DNA of 64,000 bases from Chloroflexota bacterium (GTDB taxonomy: Bacteria > Chloroflexota > Dehalococcoidia > Lucifugimonadales > Lucifugimonadaceae), in contig JABIFF010000008.1 in the NCBI GenBank assembly GCA_018650845.1, positions 62,001-126,000 on the forward strand. The letters run 5' to 3'. The notes under the pieces are model-generated. The model ran no database searches, was not told the origin of the DNA, and saw only the letters and a list, made by a program, of their open reading frames with translations. The stretch's first letter is position 1, and each line of letters opens with the position of its first letter. A program made the translations under genes and the position numbers. Below, one piece after another: positions 11,818 to 43,778 of the stretch.

Positions 11818-13242
11818 TCAGTCGGATGCTGAATTCGCCGGTGCGGAAGCTGGTGAAGAACTGGCAGAGACTTGATCGGGGTTTTTGACCAATCTGGCGA
11901 GGATGAACGCGGATAGTGCAAAAGATATCGCTACGGATATGAGGATCGCTTTGTAGCCAAGGTTTGGCGAGACGCTGTTCAGTTCGTCGATTCCGATTCC
12001 AGCTAACCGTGCAGCAGTTGCACCGGCGAGAGTGGCGACACTTGTGTAGCCGAGATCTCTGGCGGCAGATGATCGACTGACGAGATCGTTCGCTACTGCC
12101 CATGTGAGTGTCATGAATAGGCCGACCGAAAGGCCAATGATCGCACCAATCCCGAGCACAGGGCCTATTGAATCCACAAGCAGAAGTAGTAACGAGGAAA
12201 CTACACCGGCGAGTCCGGCGATGATGAACAGGTTGGTCTTTCCGTACTTATCGGCGAGATATCCGGCAGGTAGGACGGTGATGCCAGCCGTAACAACGAT
12301 GACGATGACGAGTAGATCAGCTCCATCGGCGGGATTTTCTAGGCCGACCACATCTTGAAGGAAGAAGAGAGCATAGATTTGCATGGACGACATCGCTGCT
12401 ATCGCGAAGGCAAGAGCCACCAGAAATGCCAGGTAGTTTCGACTGATTCTCGGTTTAGCTTGTTCGGGAGCACGGGTGTCGGCACTTGAGACATGTTCTC
12501 GTTCTGGTCGTTTGAGAGTTGGAATAAACATTCCTGTTTTTGGGCGAACGGTTATGACAGTCCAAAGCACTCCGGCAACGAGCATTGTCACCATGAGCGC
12601 TATCGAATACCAGAGCCACTCCGGTGCGTCTTGGCTGTCATATCTCGCCATAAATTGCAGCACGATTACGGTGATCGAGCCTGCGCCGATTAATCGCCAT
12701 AGGTTCAGAACTCCAGCTGCCTCACCACGTTCCGTGGCCGGCACATGATCGATGATCAGTGCATTTGCCGGACCCTGAGCAGAATTCCCAAACATCTGCA
12801 TAGCGACTATCGCCAGTAGTAGGCTCACAAACGATGCTGTGAAGCCAAATACGATAGTGATGCTTGCGAGTCCGATACTTCCTATTAGAAGAAACGGGAG
12901 ACGTCGTCCGATACGTGGATCACGATCGCTCAGTGCACCTGATCCGAGTTGCGCGGCTGCTGCGACAATTAATCCGAGTAGTGAGAGAACTCCAAGTGCG
13001 CCGTTTTTATCGAGTGAATAGCCAACTACGCTCACGTCGCCAAGTTCGAGTGCTTCGAGCACTTTGAACGGAAGGATTCCGGCGCCGATGCCTGTCCAGA
13101 CTCCCGAAAGTCCGAAGGCGTAGAGGCTTAGATTCGTAAAATTGTTCGAACCGCCCCGAGTTCCGTCGATAGCGCGCCGGTACAGAGAGCGGCGAGATCG
13201 CTCTTGAAGATCACCTGCATTATCGTTGAACTGGTTACTCAT
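11818..13242 (-). CDS. MFS transporter (SLC45/sugar-cation-symporter-like)
   Basis: 474 residues with about 12 predicted membrane segments. The first loop contains GALSDRDPRIGRRLPFLLIG, which resembles the D-x-x-x-GRR(R/K)P motif of the sucrose/GPH (melibiose permease-like) branch of MFS. A longer hydrophilic central loop (about 230-265) separates the halves and the C-terminus is Ser/Ala-rich. ATG start with AAAGG 6 nt upstream. It is divergent from the selenoprotein-like gene at 13383. A sugar or glycoside substrate is inferred only from the motif. Confidence 0.8.
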   Translation of the reverse strand: MSNQFNDNAGDLQERSRRSLYRRAIDGTRGGSNNFTNLSLYAFGLSGVWTGIGAGILPFKVLEALELGDVSVVGYSLDKNGALGVLSLLGLIVAAAAQLGSGALSDRDPRIGRRLPFLLIGSIGLASITIVFGFTASFVSLLLAIVAMQMFGNSAQGPANALIIDHVPATERGEAAGVLNLWRLIGAGSITVIVLQFMARYDSQDAPEWLWYSIALMVTMLVAGVLWTVITVRPKTGMFIPTLKRPEREHVSSADTRAPEQAKPRISRNYLAFLVALAFAIAAMSSMQIYALFFLQDVVGLENPADGADLLVIVIVVTAGITVLPAGYLADKYGKTNLFIIAGLAGVVSSLLLLLVDSIGPVLGIGAIIGLSVGLFMTLTWAVANDLVSRSSAARDLGYTSVATLAGATAARLAGIGIDELNSVSPNLGYKAILISVAISFALSAFILARLVKNPDQVSASSSPASAPANSASD

Positions 13243-13322: not shown

Positions 13323-13382
13323 CTGTTGTACCCGCTGAGCACCCTAATTTAAATAACGATTCGAAAATCGGAGAGCACTCAA

Positions 13383-13730
13383 GTGTCTGCTGAACTGAAA
13401 TTTTATTGCTGGTCTCGTTGAAGTACGTGTTCGAAAGCCCGTGCGGCTCTCAACGACTCAAGTTCTGAATACGAATTTCGAGATTTCTTCAAAGATCAAC
13501 TTTCCGCAGACGAGATTCGAAACCTCGCCAAGCTAACTTCTATCGATGAGATGTTCGCGTGGAAAAGCCCCAGCTCGAAGCCGTTTCGAGATCGCCGAGG
13601 CGAGGCAACTGACGACGAGCTGATTGATTTGATGCTCGAAAACCCTCGTTTGATTAGGCGCCCGATGCTTACCGACGGATCGCAAATAGTGTTCGGATAC
13701 AAGCAGGGCGCATACGACGAAATGCTCTAA
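13383..13730 (+). CDS. Probable selenoprotein of the Spx/ArsC thioredoxin-fold family (in-frame TGA)
   Basis: Translated through one TGA, this frame gives 115 residues that fit the Spx/ArsC family end to end. It has strand LKFYCWSR, the redox motif [TGA]-S-T-C-S-K-A-R at 13-20, YEFRDFFKDQLSADEIRNLA, and the C-terminal ELIDLMLENPRLIRRPM with FGYKQGAYDEML. Spx has CxxC at the redox site; the TGA (13419-13421) lies exactly where the first Cys is expected, giving UxxC. A bSECIS-like hairpin starts just after it. GTG start at 13383 with GGAGA 9 nt upstream. Selenocysteine is an inference; a point mutation or sequence error would look the same without the hairpin. Function is probably thiol/selenol redox or arsenate reduction. 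Confidence 0.8.
13419..13455 (+). promoter_or_regulatory. Candidate bSECIS element (TGA plus hairpin)
   Basis: After the TGA, 18 nt precede an apical loop CGTGC (13440-13444). The inner stem AGCC/GGCT (13436-13439, 13445-13448) is followed by an A-C mismatch, a GA/TC pair, a bulged C at 13432, and TGTT/AACG. Bacterial SECIS hairpins lie directly 3' of the UGA, with the apical loop about 16-37 nt away and a G in its first two positions; all of this is met here. Confidence 0.65.
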
Positions 13731-13911: not shown

Positions 13912-14103
13912 ATGCTGTACTTGAAATCTTGCCCGCGATGCACTGGCGACATTAATGCCGATAGCGATACGCACGGTACTTTCTTAAAGTGTCTACAGTG
14001 TGGATTCTCGAAAGATCTTTCGCCAGATATGGCTGCACGCCTGTTTGGTCGACGAATCACTCCTGCTGTTCCGATTATTGAACCAGGTCAACAAGCAGCC
14101 TAA
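13912..14103 (+). CDS. Small zinc-ribbon protein
   Basis: 63 residues. Two CxxC pairs, C7/C10 (SCPRCTG) and C27/C30 (KCLQCGF), separated by 16 residues, form a zinc ribbon. The C-terminal 30 residues are hydrophilic and unstructured-looking. The ATG is preceded by GAGGA at a good distance. Such small ribbons can bind nucleic acid or protein; no specific role can be assigned. It lies between the Spx/ArsC-like gene and an enoyl-CoA hydratase gene on the same strand. Confidence 0.75.
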   Translation: MLYLKSCPRCTGDINADSDTHGTFLKCLQCGFSKDLSPDMAARLFGRRITPAVPIIEPGQQAA

Positions 14104-14306: not shown

Positions 14307-15122
14307 ATGAGTTCAAGCGTGATTCGAGAATTTAACGACAAAGACGGATTTGTCACTCTCACGCTGAACCGCCCCGATCAACTTAATTCCTTAAGCAATG
14401 ATCTACTTGAATCGCTTGCCGCAGCTCTAGACGATGTGGCGACCGACGATTCAATTCGTGCGGTGATTATTACTGGCGCAGGTCGGGCTTTTTGTTCGGG
14501 TGCCGATACCGACGAACTGACTGGTGGTTCTGGCGACGGCCCACACAAGCCCGGACCCGGTGGAGCAGAAGAACTACGCCGCGGATTTCGTTTAGCTCGC
14601 AAGGTGATTCTCGGTATATACGAGATGGAAAAGCCGGTTATCGCCGCTATTCACGGTTCAGCCGTTGGCGCTGGATTTGATCTAGCCTGTGCGTGCGACA
14701 TTCGTATCGCTGCAGACACCGCTCGATTCATGGCCGCTTACATTCACGTTGGGCTTTTCCCCGGATATGGCGGAACGTGGCTTTACCCTCGACTTGTTGG
14801 TTCTGCCAAAGCTGCAGAGTTGATGTACACCGGGAATTTCATGGAAGTCGACGAAGCAAAATCTCTAGGCTTTCTCAACAGTGTTGTCACTGAAGATGAA
14901 CTGATTCCGGCAGCCGAGAAGATGGCGCGCCGTATAGCTGCAGGTCCGCCGATTGCAATTAGGTTGGCGAAGACGATGATGCGGCGTGGAATGTCGATGG
15001 ATCTAGAAACTAGCCTCGAAATTACCGCCGCAGCGGAGGCAATCACGTTATCCTCAGAGGATCATGTTGAAGGCATGGGCGCTTTGCGCCAAAAACGACG
15101 TCCAGAGTTCAAGGGGATCTAA
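14307..15122 (+). CDS. Enoyl-CoA hydratase/isomerase family protein
   Basis: 271 residues of crotonase fold. The substrate region LNRPDQLNSLS, the oxyanion-hole segments GAGRAFCSGAD and GSAVGAGFDLA, and LFPGYGGTWLYPRLVG are clear. The catalytic acids of true hydratases are not both conserved: GGGCELA is GAGFDLA here, and the second Glu position reads PGYGGT. The reaction could therefore be isomerisation, hydrolysis or hydration of an acyl-CoA. AGAGG lies 5 nt before the ATG. The stop overlaps the prs start as TAATG, so the two are coupled. Confidence 0.9.
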   Translation: MSSSVIREFNDKDGFVTLTLNRPDQLNSLSNDLLESLAAALDDVATDDSIRAVIITGAGRAFCSGADTDELTGGSGDGPHKPGPGGAEELRRGFRLARKVILGIYEMEKPVIAAIHGSAVGAGFDLACACDIRIAADTARFMAAYIHVGLFPGYGGTWLYPRLVGSAKAAELMYTGNFMEVDEAKSLGFLNSVVTEDELIPAAEKMARRIAAGPPIAIRLAKTMMRRGMSMDLETSLEITAAAEAITLSSEDHVEGMGALRQKRRPEFKGI

Positions 15123-16078
15123 TGTACGGGGTTAACGGAAATCCAGTAATTTTCGCTGGGAACTCTCACCCGGAGCTGGTGCAACAGATTTGCGACTACC
15201 TTCAGCAGGATGTCGGCCAGATCGAAGTGTTCAAGTTCACTAACGACAACACGTTCGTAAAGATTCTCGAAAACGTCCGCCAAAGAGACGTGTTTATCGT
15301 GCAATCGGATGTTGAACCGGTGAACGACAACATCATGGAGCTGCTGATTATGATCGATGCTGCAAAGCGAGCATCAGCAGGTCGTATCACCGCAGTAATT
15401 CCTTATTACAGCTACGCTCGCACCGATAAAAAAGACCAGCCGCGAGTGCCGATTACCGGCCGTCTTATCGCTGATCTTCTTGAAACCGCCGGTGCCGATC
15501 GCGCCATCATGGTCGATCTTCACGCAGGGCAGGTACAGGGTTTCTTCCATGTTCCTGTTGACGAACTAACGGCGATGCCGAAGCTGGTCGACTACTTCTT
15601 GAAGCGAGATCTTAAGGATCCTGTGGTTGTCGCTGTCGATATCGGGATATCGAAAAAGGCACGTTACTTCGCCGATGCCATCAGTGCTCCTCTCGCCATC
15701 GTTGAAAAACGGCGTCTCGGAAATGAAGACCGAGTTGAGAGTATGAACGTAATTGGTGATGTGGGAGATCAACCAGTGATTCTGTTTGATGACGAGATTA
15801 GTACGGGCGGAACCGTGATCTCGGCTGTCGAGGCAATCACCGCTCGGGGAGCCAACGATATTTACGTCGTTGCGACTCACGGCGTACTGCCTGGCGAAGC
15901 ATCATCCCGTATTACAAACATCCCACATATCAAAGAATTGGTAATAACCGACACAGTGCCTTTGTCGGAACACAAAGTAAACTCAAAGATCAAGGTAATT
16001 TCAGTCGCACCGCTTCTTGGAGAAGCGATAAGGCGAATTCACGAAGGCCGATCAGTTGGAGAACTGTTCATTAACTAG
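15122..16078 (+). CDS. prs: Ribose-phosphate pyrophosphokinase
   Basis: Makes PRPP from ribose 5-phosphate and ATP for nucleotide, His and Trp synthesis. 318 residues, standard length. SYARTDKKDQPRVPITG and the VDLHAGQVQGFF segment are family hallmarks. The PRPP-binding loop reads DDEISTGGT where most bacterial enzymes have DDMIDTGGT; Ser in this position recalls archaeal-type enzymes. DLHADQ also appears as DLHAGQ. These differences might alter allosteric control but the catalytic frame seems intact. Start ATG overlaps the upstream stop. Confidence 0.93.
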   Translation: MYGVNGNPVIFAGNSHPELVQQICDYLQQDVGQIEVFKFTNDNTFVKILENVRQRDVFIVQSDVEPVNDNIMELLIMIDAAKRASAGRITAVIPYYSYARTDKKDQPRVPITGRLIADLLETAGADRAIMVDLHAGQVQGFFHVPVDELTAMPKLVDYFLKRDLKDPVVVAVDIGISKKARYFADAISAPLAIVEKRRLGNEDRVESMNVIGDVGDQPVILFDDEISTGGTVISAVEAITARGANDIYVVATHGVLPGEASSRITNIPHIKELVITDTVPLSEHKVNSKIKVISVAPLLGEAIRRIHEGRSVGELFIN

Positions 16079-16162: not shown

Positions 16163-18919
16163 ATGTTCAAGCTGTTCAACAAACTCGTTGGTGATTCCAA
16201 CGAAAAAGCCCTAAAAGATATTCAACCCCTCGTCGATGAGATTAGTAGTCTCGAGCCTGAGTTTGAAAAACTCAGCGATGAAGAGCTCAAAGGCGTAACC
16301 GCCGACTACCGTTCCCGGTACAACGGCGGGGAAAGCCTCGACGACATTCTTCCAGAAGCATTCGCTGCTGTTCGGGAAGCGTCACGTCGAGCCGTTGGAA
16401 TGCGACCGTTCGACGTTCAGATGATCGGTGGAATTGTTCTTCACCAAGGCAAAATCGCTGAAATGCGCACGGGTGAGGGCAAAACCCTTGTAGCCACCAT
16501 GCCGGCGTATTTGAACGCTATTTCCGGCGGAGGCGCACACGTAATTACCGTGAACGACTATCTCGCAAAGCTTCATGCTGGCTGGATGGGTAACGTTCAT
16601 CACGCGCTTGGAATAACCGTTGGATGTCTGCAGAACGACGCATCGTGGGTATTTAATCCCGATGCTCCGCTGGCTGTTGGTGCTGGTGAAGAGCACAACG
16701 AAGATGATGCCGACGCCGCTCCACCGGTGCGAACGCCCGAAGACAACTTCAACTCTGCTACGAAGCAAGAGGCGTACGCCTGCGATATCACTTATGGCAC
16801 GAACAACGAGTTCGGCTTCGACTATCTTCGCGACAACATGGTTGAAGAATCAGAGCGTCGTGTTCAGCGCGGTCGTACTTACGCAATCGTCGATGAAGTA
16901 GACAGCATTCTGATTGACGAAGCTCGAACTCCGCTGATCATTTCTGGTCCTGCGAAGGAACAAGGTCAGGAATACCGACGATTCTCGGTGCTGGCCAAGC
17001 GACTAACAGTCGATGTGCATTTCGAGATCGAAGATAAGCGCAAGACGATTATGCTTTCTGACGAAGGTATCGCAGCTGTTGAGCGTGAGCTGAAGGTCGA
17101 AAACCTCTACGCCCCTGAAAACGATGTTCTTTCTCACTTCACTGAGAACGCCATCCGCGCAGAGCACGTTTACGCAAAAGATCGTGAGTATGTGGTTCAG
17201 GGCCAGGAAGTTGTTCTAGTCGACGAATTTACAGGTCGACTGATGACTGGTCGCCGCTTTTCAGATGGTCTTCATCAGGCTCTCGAAGCTAAAGAGGGTG
17301 TCAGAGTTCAGCGTGAATCGAACACCTACGCCACTATTACGCTTCAGAACTACTTCCGCATGTACGACAAGCTCGCTGGGATGACCGGTACTGCTGCTAC
17401 AGAAGCGGAAGAACTCGACAAGATTTACAAGCTTGAAGTAGTCGATATTCCTACGAACAAGCCGATTCAACGACAGGACCTTGGCGACTACATCTACATG
17501 ACCGAAGAGGCCAAGTGGAACGCCATCGCTGAGAAAATTTCTGAACTTCATCACGACGGACGACCAGTTCTAGTTGGTACGACCAGCATCGACAAATCTG
17601 AACTCCTAGGTGACTTGCTCAAGAAAAAGCACGTTCCCCACAACGTTCTAAACGCTAAGCAGCACGAGCGTGAAGCCAACGTGGTTGCCGAAGCCGGTAA
17701 GGCTGGCGCTGTAACGGTTGCAACCAACATGGCAGGTCGTGGTACCGACATCATTCTTGGCGGTAATCCTGATGTGACTACGCCGACCGAGGCTGGTTGG
17801 GATACCGACCACGACACTATTGTTCAAAAGGGTGGTCTATTCGTTCTAGGTACGGAGCGACATGAATCACGCCGCATCGATAACCAGCTACGTGGACGTT
17901 GTGGTCGACAGGGTGACCCGGGTGAAACTCAGTTCTTCCTTTCTACTGAAGATGACATCGTTCGACGGTTCGGTGGCGACAAAATTCGCGGCGCAATGAG
18001 CCTGTTCCGTTGGGAAGCTGATGTTCCTATCGAGAACAAAATGGTCTCGAAATCGGTTGAAACGGCCCAAACCAAAGTTGAAGCCCAGAACTTCGAAATT
18101 CGAAAGTATTTGGTCGACTACGACGACGTTGTGAACACGCAGCGTGACGTGATTTACCAGCTCCGCGACAAGATTATTGATGGCGAGGATCTCCGCCCAA
18201 CGATTTCCGAATATATCGAAGAAGAAGTTCGGATTATCGTTAGCGAACGCATCAATGGCGGCAGTGAGAACTATGATGTTGAAGGTCTGTTCCGTGACTT
18301 GATGCTGGTATTCCCAACACCTGAAGGCTTCCCTGAACGAGACGATATCTTTGACATGCGGCCTGAAGAGGCAGTAGATACCTTCCTTGAACTGATCGAC
18401 ACTATCTATGACAAACGTACCGGCGAGTTTGGGGCAGAGCTGCTTCACAAGCTGGAACGCACGATCATGCTTCGTACTATCGATGAACACTGGGTTGAGC
18501 ACCTGACTTCGATGGACAACATGAGGCAGGGAATTGGTCTTGAGGCTGCAGGTCAGCGTGACCCGCTCGTTGCTTACAAGCGACAGGCTTTTGAGATGTT
18601 CACGCAGCTGGATACGACTATAAAGTCGACGGTAGCTCGTACTATCTTCCGTGTGGCGCTTACACAGCAGCCACCACCGTCTGCAGCGCCTGTAACGAGT
18701 GCAACGAAGGCTGATGCCGATGTTTCGACGCAGAAGGCGAATGCCGTTGCGAACCAGAAATCGGTGATGTCGAGCGTCAACTCAGGGCACGGCAGTGGTC
18801 AGCAGGGCGGTAATAGCCTTGCTCAGGTGCCGACACACACGCCTGATGGTCGAAAGATGACCCGAGCAGAGCGTCGCAAGATCGAACGCCTCCAACGCAA
18901 GCAGTCGAAGCAGGACTAA
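16163..18919 (+). CDS. secA: Preprotein translocase ATPase SecA
   Basis: 918 residues. The motor powers Sec export at the inner face of the membrane. Walker A is MRTGEGKT (101-108), the DEAD-type Walker B is within IVDEVDSILIDEARTPLIISG, and the second helicase half contains TNMAGRGTDIILGG and the arginine-finger region QLRGRCGRQGDPG. An acidic insertion rich in Glu/Asp sits at about 162-197 between Walker A and the DEVD box. The C-terminus is Lys/Arg-rich (RRKIERLQRKQSK) and lacks the zinc-binding SecB motif. No clear ribosome site precedes the ATG. Confidence 0.97.
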   Translation: MFKLFNKLVGDSNEKALKDIQPLVDEISSLEPEFEKLSDEELKGVTADYRSRYNGGESLDDILPEAFAAVREASRRAVGMRPFDVQMIGGIVLHQGKIAEMRTGEGKTLVATMPAYLNAISGGGAHVITVNDYLAKLHAGWMGNVHHALGITVGCLQNDASWVFNPDAPLAVGAGEEHNEDDADAAPPVRTPEDNFNSATKQEAYACDITYGTNNEFGFDYLRDNMVEESERRVQRGRTYAIVDEVDSILIDEARTPLIISGPAKEQGQEYRRFSVLAKRLTVDVHFEIEDKRKTIMLSDEGIAAVERELKVENLYAPENDVLSHFTENAIRAEHVYAKDREYVVQGQEVVLVDEFTGRLMTGRRFSDGLHQALEAKEGVRVQRESNTYATITLQNYFRMYDKLAGMTGTAATEAEELDKIYKLEVVDIPTNKPIQRQDLGDYIYMTEEAKWNAIAEKISELHHDGRPVLVGTTSIDKSELLGDLLKKKHVPHNVLNAKQHEREANVVAEAGKAGAVTVATNMAGRGTDIILGGNPDVTTPTEAGWDTDHDTIVQKGGLFVLGTERHESRRIDNQLRGRCGRQGDPGETQFFLSTEDDIVRRFGGDKIRGAMSLFRWEADVPIENKMVSKSVETAQTKVEAQNFEIRKYLVDYDDVVNTQRDVIYQLRDKIIDGEDLRPTISEYIEEEVRIIVSERINGGSENYDVEGLFRDLMLVFPTPEGFPERDDIFDMRPEEAVDTFLELIDTIYDKRTGEFGAELLHKLERTIMLRTIDEHWVEHLTSMDNMRQGIGLEAAGQRDPLVAYKRQAFEMFTQLDTTIKSTVARTIFRVALTQQPPPSAAPVTSATKADADVSTQKANAVANQKSVMSSVNSGHGSGQQGGNSLAQVPTHTPDGRKMTRAERRKIERLQRKQSKQD

Positions 18920-21852: not shown

Positions 21853-21917
21853 GCAGTAATAGGCATTGCGTTCGTACGAACTAACGGCTAGCCTGAATGT
21901 GATATTGAATCAGCTTC

Positions 21918-22193
21918 GACGAGAAGTAGTAGCGGGCAGGCAGGGTCAAAGAGATCCGGTGGTTGGTGTGAACCGGAACCCTTGCATTCGTGAAGTCATC
22001 TCCGAGCTGGTGTCCTGAAATCTTCGTAGTGCTGAGCACTCGAAATTAGTAAGTTCACCCGGTTGCTCCGTTACAGCTAATTGAGTGGTTCGCTCGCAGC
22101 AAGATGCGCGAGTGGGCAACGAAGGTGGTACCGCGGTTAACCCGTCCTTTGATGAAGTTCAAATAAGTAATTTCTGAAGTGGATGGGTTTTTT
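21918..22193 (+). promoter_or_regulatory. T-box riboswitch ahead of valS (GUC specifier)
   Basis: A canonical transcriptional T-box leader. The AG bulge AAGAGA (21949-21954) is followed by GGTGG and GGTGTGAACC of the stem I top. The segment GTGAAGTCATCTCCGAG places the specifier codon GTC (valine) at 21995-21997. The T-box sequence AAGGTGGTACCGCGG is at 22122-22136, where TGGT would pair with the ACCA end of uncharged tRNA-Val. CCCGTCC (22141-22147) and GGATGGG (22181-22187) then form the terminator stem before a T-run (22188-22193). Uncharged tRNA-Val should favour read-through into valS. Confidence 0.95.
22141..22193 (+). terminator. T-box-controlled intrinsic terminator
   Basis: AACCCGTCC pairs with GGATGGGTT (one G-T pair) around a 33-nt loop, followed by six T. 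Its left arm directly follows the T-box sequence, which forms the competing antiterminator when tRNA is bound. Confidence 0.9.
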
Positions 22194-43426: not shown

Positions 43427-43621
43427 AATCTACGGCTGTTTCCTGCACATTATTCGGCGCTTCCAAACTGGAATATGCGCATTCTAGCTGCCCCAGCATG
43501 AAGCCGCAAACTCGGCGAGGTGAGGAAATACTGGACGATTTGACATTGAGTTGTTTGGTTGCAAAACTTGCCATAGACGAAGCAACGCTTTGTCGGTGTT
43601 GATCGCAGCATAGCGACCAAC
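43427..43621. other. Divergent promoter region, no firm gene
   Basis: About 195 bp between the SirB1-like start (minus) and the TPP riboswitch (plus). It must hold promoters for both directions, but no clear -35/-10 pair stands out. A 34-codon plus-strand frame from ATG 43498 lacks a ribosome site and is not called. Confidence 0.4.
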
Positions 43622-43710
43622 ACACGGGGAGCTCGGGTAGCCGGGCTGAGAGGGCAGACGCAATACTCTGCCAACCCTTGAACCTGATCTGGGTAATGCC
43701 AGCGTAGGAA
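43622..43710 (+). promoter_or_regulatory. TPP (THI-box) riboswitch
   Basis: The conserved thiamine-pyrophosphate aptamer is present: ACACGGGGAGC, then GGGCTGAGA, the variable P3 arm closed by GGCAGA/TCTGCC, ACCCTTGAACCTGATCTGGG, TAATGCCAGCGTAGGAA. Downstream, ATTACCCAG (43739-43747) is the exact complement of CTGGGTAAT in the aptamer (43689-43697), and CCCAG can alternatively pair with CTGGG at 43759-43763. These mutually exclusive pairings would make an expression platform close to the start codon at 43779. Binding of TPP should repress the transporter. Confidence 0.96.
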
Positions 43711-43778
43711 ATCGGCCGAGTGCCACATCCAAGCGAAGATTACCCAGATAACGACTGACTGGGGATTACGCAGGAACG

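Follow-up and report, generated by a model that had tools for sequence, protein, structure and literature searches.

The analysed stretch of 64,000 nucleotides (the window) contains a short gene on its forward strand, located between a divergently oriented MFS transporter gene and a small open reading frame, and preceded by a Shine-Dalgarno-like hexamer (Table 1). The gene starts with GTG at position 13383 and ends with TAA (13728–13730), with a single in-frame TGA between them. In the protein translated through this TGA, the active-site motif is U-S-T-C, standing where C-x-x-C would be expected (U being selenocysteine, Sec). On re-reading the sequence, the GTG frame and its one TGA proved to be exactly as given in the initial annotation of this DNA.

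Table 1. Features of the locus. Coordinates are positions in the window.
Feature	Coordinates	Strand	Remarks
Divergent MFS transporter	11818..13242	-	Pfam MFS_1; near the gene in 36/42 neighbourhood-sharing named loci
Shine-Dalgarno-like GGAGAG	13370..13375	+	7 nt 5' of the GTG start; sequence read directly
Predicted selenoprotein gene, Spx/ArsC fold	13383..13730	+	115 codons plus TAA; codon 13 TGA as Sec
Putative Sec codon TGA (codon 13), at first Cys of CxxC	13419..13421	+	Homologues: TGA 91/99, Cys codon 8/99
TGT, Cys16, second (resolving) Cys of UxxC	13428..13430	+	Cys in 40/41 rows, Ser in 1/41 (alignment A2)
bSECIS-like hairpin, starting 11 nt past the TGA	13433..13451	+	Stem 13436-13439/13445-13448; 2 lower pairs below a mismatch
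Arg92-Arg93-Pro94	13656..13664	+	Invariant across 41/41 aligned homologues
Small CxxC zinc-ribbon-like ORF, 63 aa, directly downstream	13912..14103	+	Pfam zf_Rg 19.3 bits, below cut-off 25.5
PRPP synthetase	15122..16078	+	Pfam; downstream in 40/42 neighbourhood-sharing named loci
SecA	16163..18919	+	Pfam; 3' of PRPP synthetase

The read-through product matches the Pfam family ArsC (PF03960) with 53.7 bits (cut-off 24, E-value 2.7e-14) and the NCBIfam model TIGR01617 (Spx/MgsR) with 76.6 bits, narrowly passing the cut-off of 75.05, by 1.5 bits. Both matches run over nearly the full length of the protein, in agreement with the alignment to Spx and ArsC that had been proposed for this frame. A scan of the window was made for frames in which a TGA is preceded by at least 8 codons and followed by at least 50, dropping those with 30% or more overlap with long open reading frames. 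The overlap filter reduced 124 TGA frames to seven, among which only the 13383–13730 frame has a redox-like motif at its TGA. When the 102 codons following the TGA are compared with those of the gene of strain JH1073 (L028, identical to L093), 40 synonymous and eight non-synonymous codon changes are found, indicating that the coding sequence downstream of the TGA is under purifying selection.

An AlphaFold model of the protein, calculated with Cys in place of Sec, has a thioredoxin-type fold and a mean pLDDT of 92.3. Its best matches in the PDB are Spx chains (E-value 9.9e-9, 25–30% identity), followed by YffB and ArsC-like proteins. In an alignment of 41 members of the family, the invariant columns include position 13 (with Sec counted as Cys), Phe36, Glu44, Phe58, Ser62 and Pro63, and, towards the carboxy-terminus, Pro88, Ile91, Arg92, Arg93, Pro94 and Gly105.

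Homologues were searched for in two sets of genomes. A protein search of 100 genomes (the source genome and 99 relatives) gave 62 matches in 61 genomes; the codon at the site is TGA in 55 of these, TGC in four and TGT in two, while in one match the end of a contig truncates the gene. All 19 genomes of the genus contain the gene, as do 20 of 42 from the rest of the family and 22 of 39 from the rest of the order; in this search it was not found in the family genera g4 to g7. The nearest relative with the gene among the 100 genomes belongs to the same genus (G013, 91% identity), and we infer that the source of the window is a SAR202-type member of the Chloroflexota near Candidatus Lucifugimonas. 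A search of named genomes gave 144 loci, of which the best 80 contain TGA at the site in 72 cases, TGC in five and TGT in two, with one cut off; these 80 also include records from Syntrophaceae/Smithella and from Latescibacterota. One of the TGA forms (L093) comes from Candidatus Lucifugimonas marina JH1073, for which a closed PacBio genome is available (PMC10444878). A further locus, L108, comes from a record titled Alphaproteobacteria, yet it is a same-genus copy with SAR202-type synteny, and its taxon label is probably a binning error.

The pooled set contains 99 distinct genes, leaving out exact duplicate coding sequences, two loci that reach a contig end before the site (L049 and L114) and the viral locus L057. 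The site is occupied by TGA in 91 of them, by TGC in six and by TGT in two; no other codon occurs. Each of the 99 thus has Cys or TGA at position 13, and the alignment of homologues places the TGA on the first Cys of the CxxC motif, as had been claimed. The records with TGA span Chloroflexota, Thermodesulfobacteriota, Myxococcota and Latescibacterota. UxxC is present in 90 of the 91 distinct Sec genes; the remaining Sec homologue (L054/L117) has UxxS, indicating that loss of the resolving Cys is possible. In a maximum-likelihood tree of 97 rows, built from few columns and rooted at the midpoint, two changes between Sec and Cys are needed; the tree leaves out a partial sequence (L087), duplicate proteins and distant Cys homologues such as Spx. 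Viral contigs contained one distant Cys homologue (L057, 29% identity), excluded from the hairpin counts given below.

The hairpin downstream of the TGA has a four-base-pair stem and the loop CGUGC (13440–13444). The loop begins 18 nt past the TGA and has G in the second place; this geometry, already described in the initial annotation, was confirmed and is conserved across relatives. The published bSECIS consensus comprises a loop of 3–9 nt, a stem of 4–16 bp, a G in the first two loop places and a distance of 16–37 nt from the UGA, together with a minimum free energy of -7.5 kcal/mol or lower (PMC13188914). In stem, loop, G and spacing, the hairpin of the window falls within these limits, while its minimum free energies of -6.2 (23 nt), -7.8 (36 nt) and -8.0 kcal/mol (40 nt) are borderline with respect to the energy limit. 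Its folding does not stand out against shuffled sequences, with z-scores of -1.43, -0.03 and -0.62 for three stretches. At gathering thresholds, Rfam gives no match at the hairpin; elsewhere in the window it reports a T-box leader (21907–22152) and a TPP riboswitch (43615–43728). Taken alone the hairpin of the window is weak, and the case for an RNA signal is therefore comparative.

Within the genus, a complete five-base-pair stem is present in 18 of 19 genes; the window is the sole exception, having lost the top pair. When the genes of the genus were re-coded synonymously (1000 trials), the five-base-pair stem was complete in a mean of 2.9 genes and in at most nine. The other 70 TGA genes have an eight-base-pair stem, sited 4 nt farther from the TGA than in the genus. 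At this main position all eight pairs are formed in 50 of the 70 genes and at least seven in 66, with fewer than seven in the other four; in 1000 synonymous re-codings, at most three of the 70 had the complete stem. At several of the stem pairs, two-sided changes (GC/AT, CG/TA) occur among these genes. Shifting the pairing partner by one lowers the paired fraction in the genus from 0.99 to no more than 0.70; among the other genes, a fraction of 0.95 falls to about 0.50 or below. Among the eight Cys genes, none has seven or more of the eight pairs at the main position, and one has the five-base-pair stem at the position used in the genus, by chance or otherwise. From these sequence comparisons, the hairpin is judged to be conserved beyond the requirements of the protein.

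One gene family thus contains two hairpin positions 4 nt apart, and the simplest reading would be that one position moved from the other during evolution. In L062 and L063, which belong to another genus, the hairpin is also found at the nearer place, with eight and seven pairs, respectively. The residues encoded by the 3' arm track the position of the hairpin: LSQ or LLQ where the hairpin is far (55 of 70 genes), LND, LNE or LDD in the genus (15 of 19 genes), and LDx in the Cys genes (seven of eight).

The source genome (24 contigs totalling 2.48 Mb, completeness 87%) was searched for the Sec decoding machinery. Profile searches identified SelA (428 bits), SelB (330 bits for the main part, 350 bits including the carboxy-terminal part) and SelD (L022, 368 bits). 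The selD gene carries an in-frame TGA of its own, and SelD is probably a selenoprotein too. A tRNA-Sec was found with 66 bits and is also called as SeC, with anticodon tca, by ARAGORN. There are two tRNA-Sec matches of equal score (L001 and L002), one of them located where contig C17 ends, perhaps the result of an assembly overlap. The source cell can decode Sec: the complete absence of such machinery, named in the initial annotation as an observation that would speak against a selenoprotein, is not what the genome contains.

Among the 100 genomes, SelB was detected with an E-value of 1e-60 or better in 86 and above the cut-off in 84. In each of the 54 genomes that contain the TGA form, the source genome among them, SelB exceeds the cut-off. 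Of the 14 genomes lacking a SelB match at 1e-60, none contains the TGA form and one (G090) contains the Cys form; G090 has no tRNA-Sec match either. The association between the TGA form and SelB has a Fisher p-value of 5e-6, with genomes counted without correction for relatedness. The presence of SelB does not predict a TGA-form gene, as 32 of the 86 SelB genomes are without one (five have the Cys form, and in G003 the gene is cut off). A tRNA-Sec of about 60 bits or more is found in 47 of the 54 TGA-form genomes; three (G001, G008 and G015) have only a match of about 53 bits, and four (G026, G029, G035 and G098) have no match, most genomes being incomplete and the filters strict. The overall tally of 77 genomes with tRNA-Sec out of 100 includes some of the 53-bit matches, which are probably tRNA-Ser; a match of this type in the source genome itself (L003 in G000) is called tRNA-Ser by ARAGORN. 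In genus g11, SelB and tRNA-Sec are retained in all five genomes with a Cys form (G028, G037, G046, G053 and G058), so that Cys is used there although Sec can still be decoded.

The gene neighbourhood of the window is common to 42 of the best 80 named loci, most of the 42 also containing LytB and SecA. The remaining 38 have none of this neighbourhood, and no single alternative context is common to them. In same-genus loci (L093–L109), the zinc-ribbon-like open reading frame directly follows the gene in 13 of 17 cases. An MFS gene upstream and a PRPP synthetase gene downstream also flank the gene in seven of the eight Cys-form loci (L119, L120, L123, L125, L126, L128 and L129); the synteny comparison covered these seven, the eighth being L076 of G090. 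The shared flanks indicate that these seven are orthologues in place, in which TGA was exchanged for TGC or TGT. A different context is found in nine loci (L135, L140, L142, L145, L161, L163, L164, L167 and L168), where a MutS-like gene is located directly 5' of the gene and, in eight of the nine, a MutL-like gene downstream; the Pfam typing was done on one representative of each. This MutS/MutL context corresponds to one clade, outside the lineage of the window.

The TGA could be imagined to be a real stop codon, or to result from a sequencing error or from mutation in a pseudogene, leaving the gene broken or truncated; TGA is a stop in the standard code, and the hairpin of the window is unremarkable alone. 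Against this stand the TGA at the same codon in most of the distinct genes, over four phyla and including the closed PacBio genome of JH1073, the restriction of the site to TGA, TGC and TGT in all 99, and the excess of synonymous changes past the TGA. Translation could not restart before codon 57 either, the first in-frame ATG, GTG or TTG following the TGA. The reading as a stop, error or pseudogene was rejected on the conserved TGA and the selection downstream of it, and we regard it as extremely improbable. The window gene is instead, as far as sequence comparison can tell, very probably a true selenoprotein gene, its TGA being decoded as Sec. The UGA at codon 13 would be decoded via SelB and tRNA-Sec, aided by the downstream hairpin, giving a single thioredoxin-fold domain of the Spx/YffB/ArsC superfamily with a predicted Sec-x-x-Cys active site. 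In the proposed mechanism, the selenolate of Sec13 would attack an oxidised or electrophilic substrate and Cys16 would resolve the intermediate, forming a selenenylsulfide that a cellular thiol donor would re-reduce; the invariant Arg92 and Arg93 may help to hold the selenolate. A general role of this kind, as a UxxC thiol/selenol oxidoreductase, is our favoured prediction, held with moderate confidence.

Two more specific functions can be weighed against this prediction. A selenium-dependent arsenate reductase would agree with the Pfam ArsC match and with the name given to similar selenoproteins (PMC1088965, PMC2398784), and all 41 aligned members match the arsenate reductase model TIGR00014 with E-values of 0.001 or lower, the best being 5.8e-16. 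However, the window protein scores 36.7 bits with this model, for a cut-off of 106.05, no ars gene is present among the nine neighbouring proteins typed with Pfam (six and three), and the contexts are SecA and PRPP synthetase in one group and MutS and MutL in another; we consider an arsenate reductase unlikely. Alternatively, the protein might bind RNA polymerase as a regulator of the Spx type, in which a Se-S redox switch replaces the disulfide. Spx chains are its best matches in both sequence and fold, TIGR01617, which it just passes, is named for Spx/MgsR, all 41 members match the Spx models at the same E-value limit (best 1.7e-19), and its genome contains no other ArsC-family match. On the other hand, it falls far short of three Spx-specific models, with 45.1, 44.9 and 35.8 bits for cut-offs of 123, 152 and 159, respectively. 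The column aligned with Gly52 of Spx, which we take to be a contact with RNA polymerase, contains no conserved Gly (Ser in 18, Pro in nine and Gly in four of the 41 members), and the chain ends at residue 115, compared with 131–132 in most Spx chains. A regulatory role of the Spx type is therefore quite improbable, and we likewise give little credence to its elaborated form, in which a redox-sensing selenium Spx of SAR202-type bacteria would exert a selenenylsulfide switch on RNA polymerase and the Sec signal would have moved by 4 nt, with the encoded residues following. The doubt falls on the regulator, as the data support the two hairpin positions and a move from one to the other is their simplest reading. 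The original label "Spx/ArsC-like" holds for fold and sequence; as a statement of function, neither half of it is supported. The favoured prediction remains that of a general oxidoreductase.

Members of the SAR202 Chloroflexota occur throughout the ocean (PMC10444878). In the literature searched, no paper was found that treats SAR202 together with a selenoprotein, and the main text of the paper on the cultivation of Candidatus Lucifugimonas contains no term that starts with "selen" (PMC10444878). Ordinary gene calling would lose the gene or shorten it to 12 residues. What the analysis contributes is the lineage, together with two positions of the hairpin and a series of Sec and Cys forms that occupy a single locus. 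A series with Sec or Cys at the same locus, combined with two hairpin sites, should be useful for understanding how a Sec signal is kept or lost, and the lost top pair in the hairpin of the window raises the question of weaker Sec insertion in this species.

UxxC selenoproteins similar to ArsC and Spx are already known from the published descriptions, and the window gene belongs to that kind. In the Sargasso Sea, selenoproteins of the ArsC family with a UxxS motif and a predicted bSECIS element were described as arsenate reductases (PMC1088965). They share with our protein the Sec in the redox motif of an ArsC-family protein and the predicted bSECIS element, but differ in having UxxS, where UxxC predominates here. 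The Global Ocean Sampling study of 2008 described "Arsenate reductase 2" (cd03032), with UxxC and 42 sequences (PMC2398784). Like the present family, it belongs to the ArsC/Spx superfamily, has UxxC, is marine and is a predicted Sec form; compared by description only, the branch to which the window belongs may be the same group. An arsenate reductase-like UxxC protein is also included in a 2022 review (PMC9312934), and in a 2026 review, which cites the Global Ocean Sampling study, NF041106 is the entry for an arsenate reductase-like UxxC selenoprotein (PMC13188914). The NF041106 model, ArsC_rel_Se_1, resembles our protein in being of the ArsC superfamily with Sec at the position of the first Cys, but the window protein scores only 36.2 bits, far under the cut-off of 85, and the best E-value among the 41 members is 2e-10. 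This suggests that annotation pipelines may miss the gene. The structure predicted for the window protein is similar to that of Spx (PDB entries 1z3e and 3gfk), with a TM-score of 0.87–0.88 by query length and a sequence identity of 27%. The position of the CxxC motif and the Arg-Arg-Pro motif are conserved between the two, while the window protein differs from Spx in having Sec for the first Cys, a shorter chain, no conserved equivalent of Gly52 and scores below the cut-offs of the Spx-specific models.
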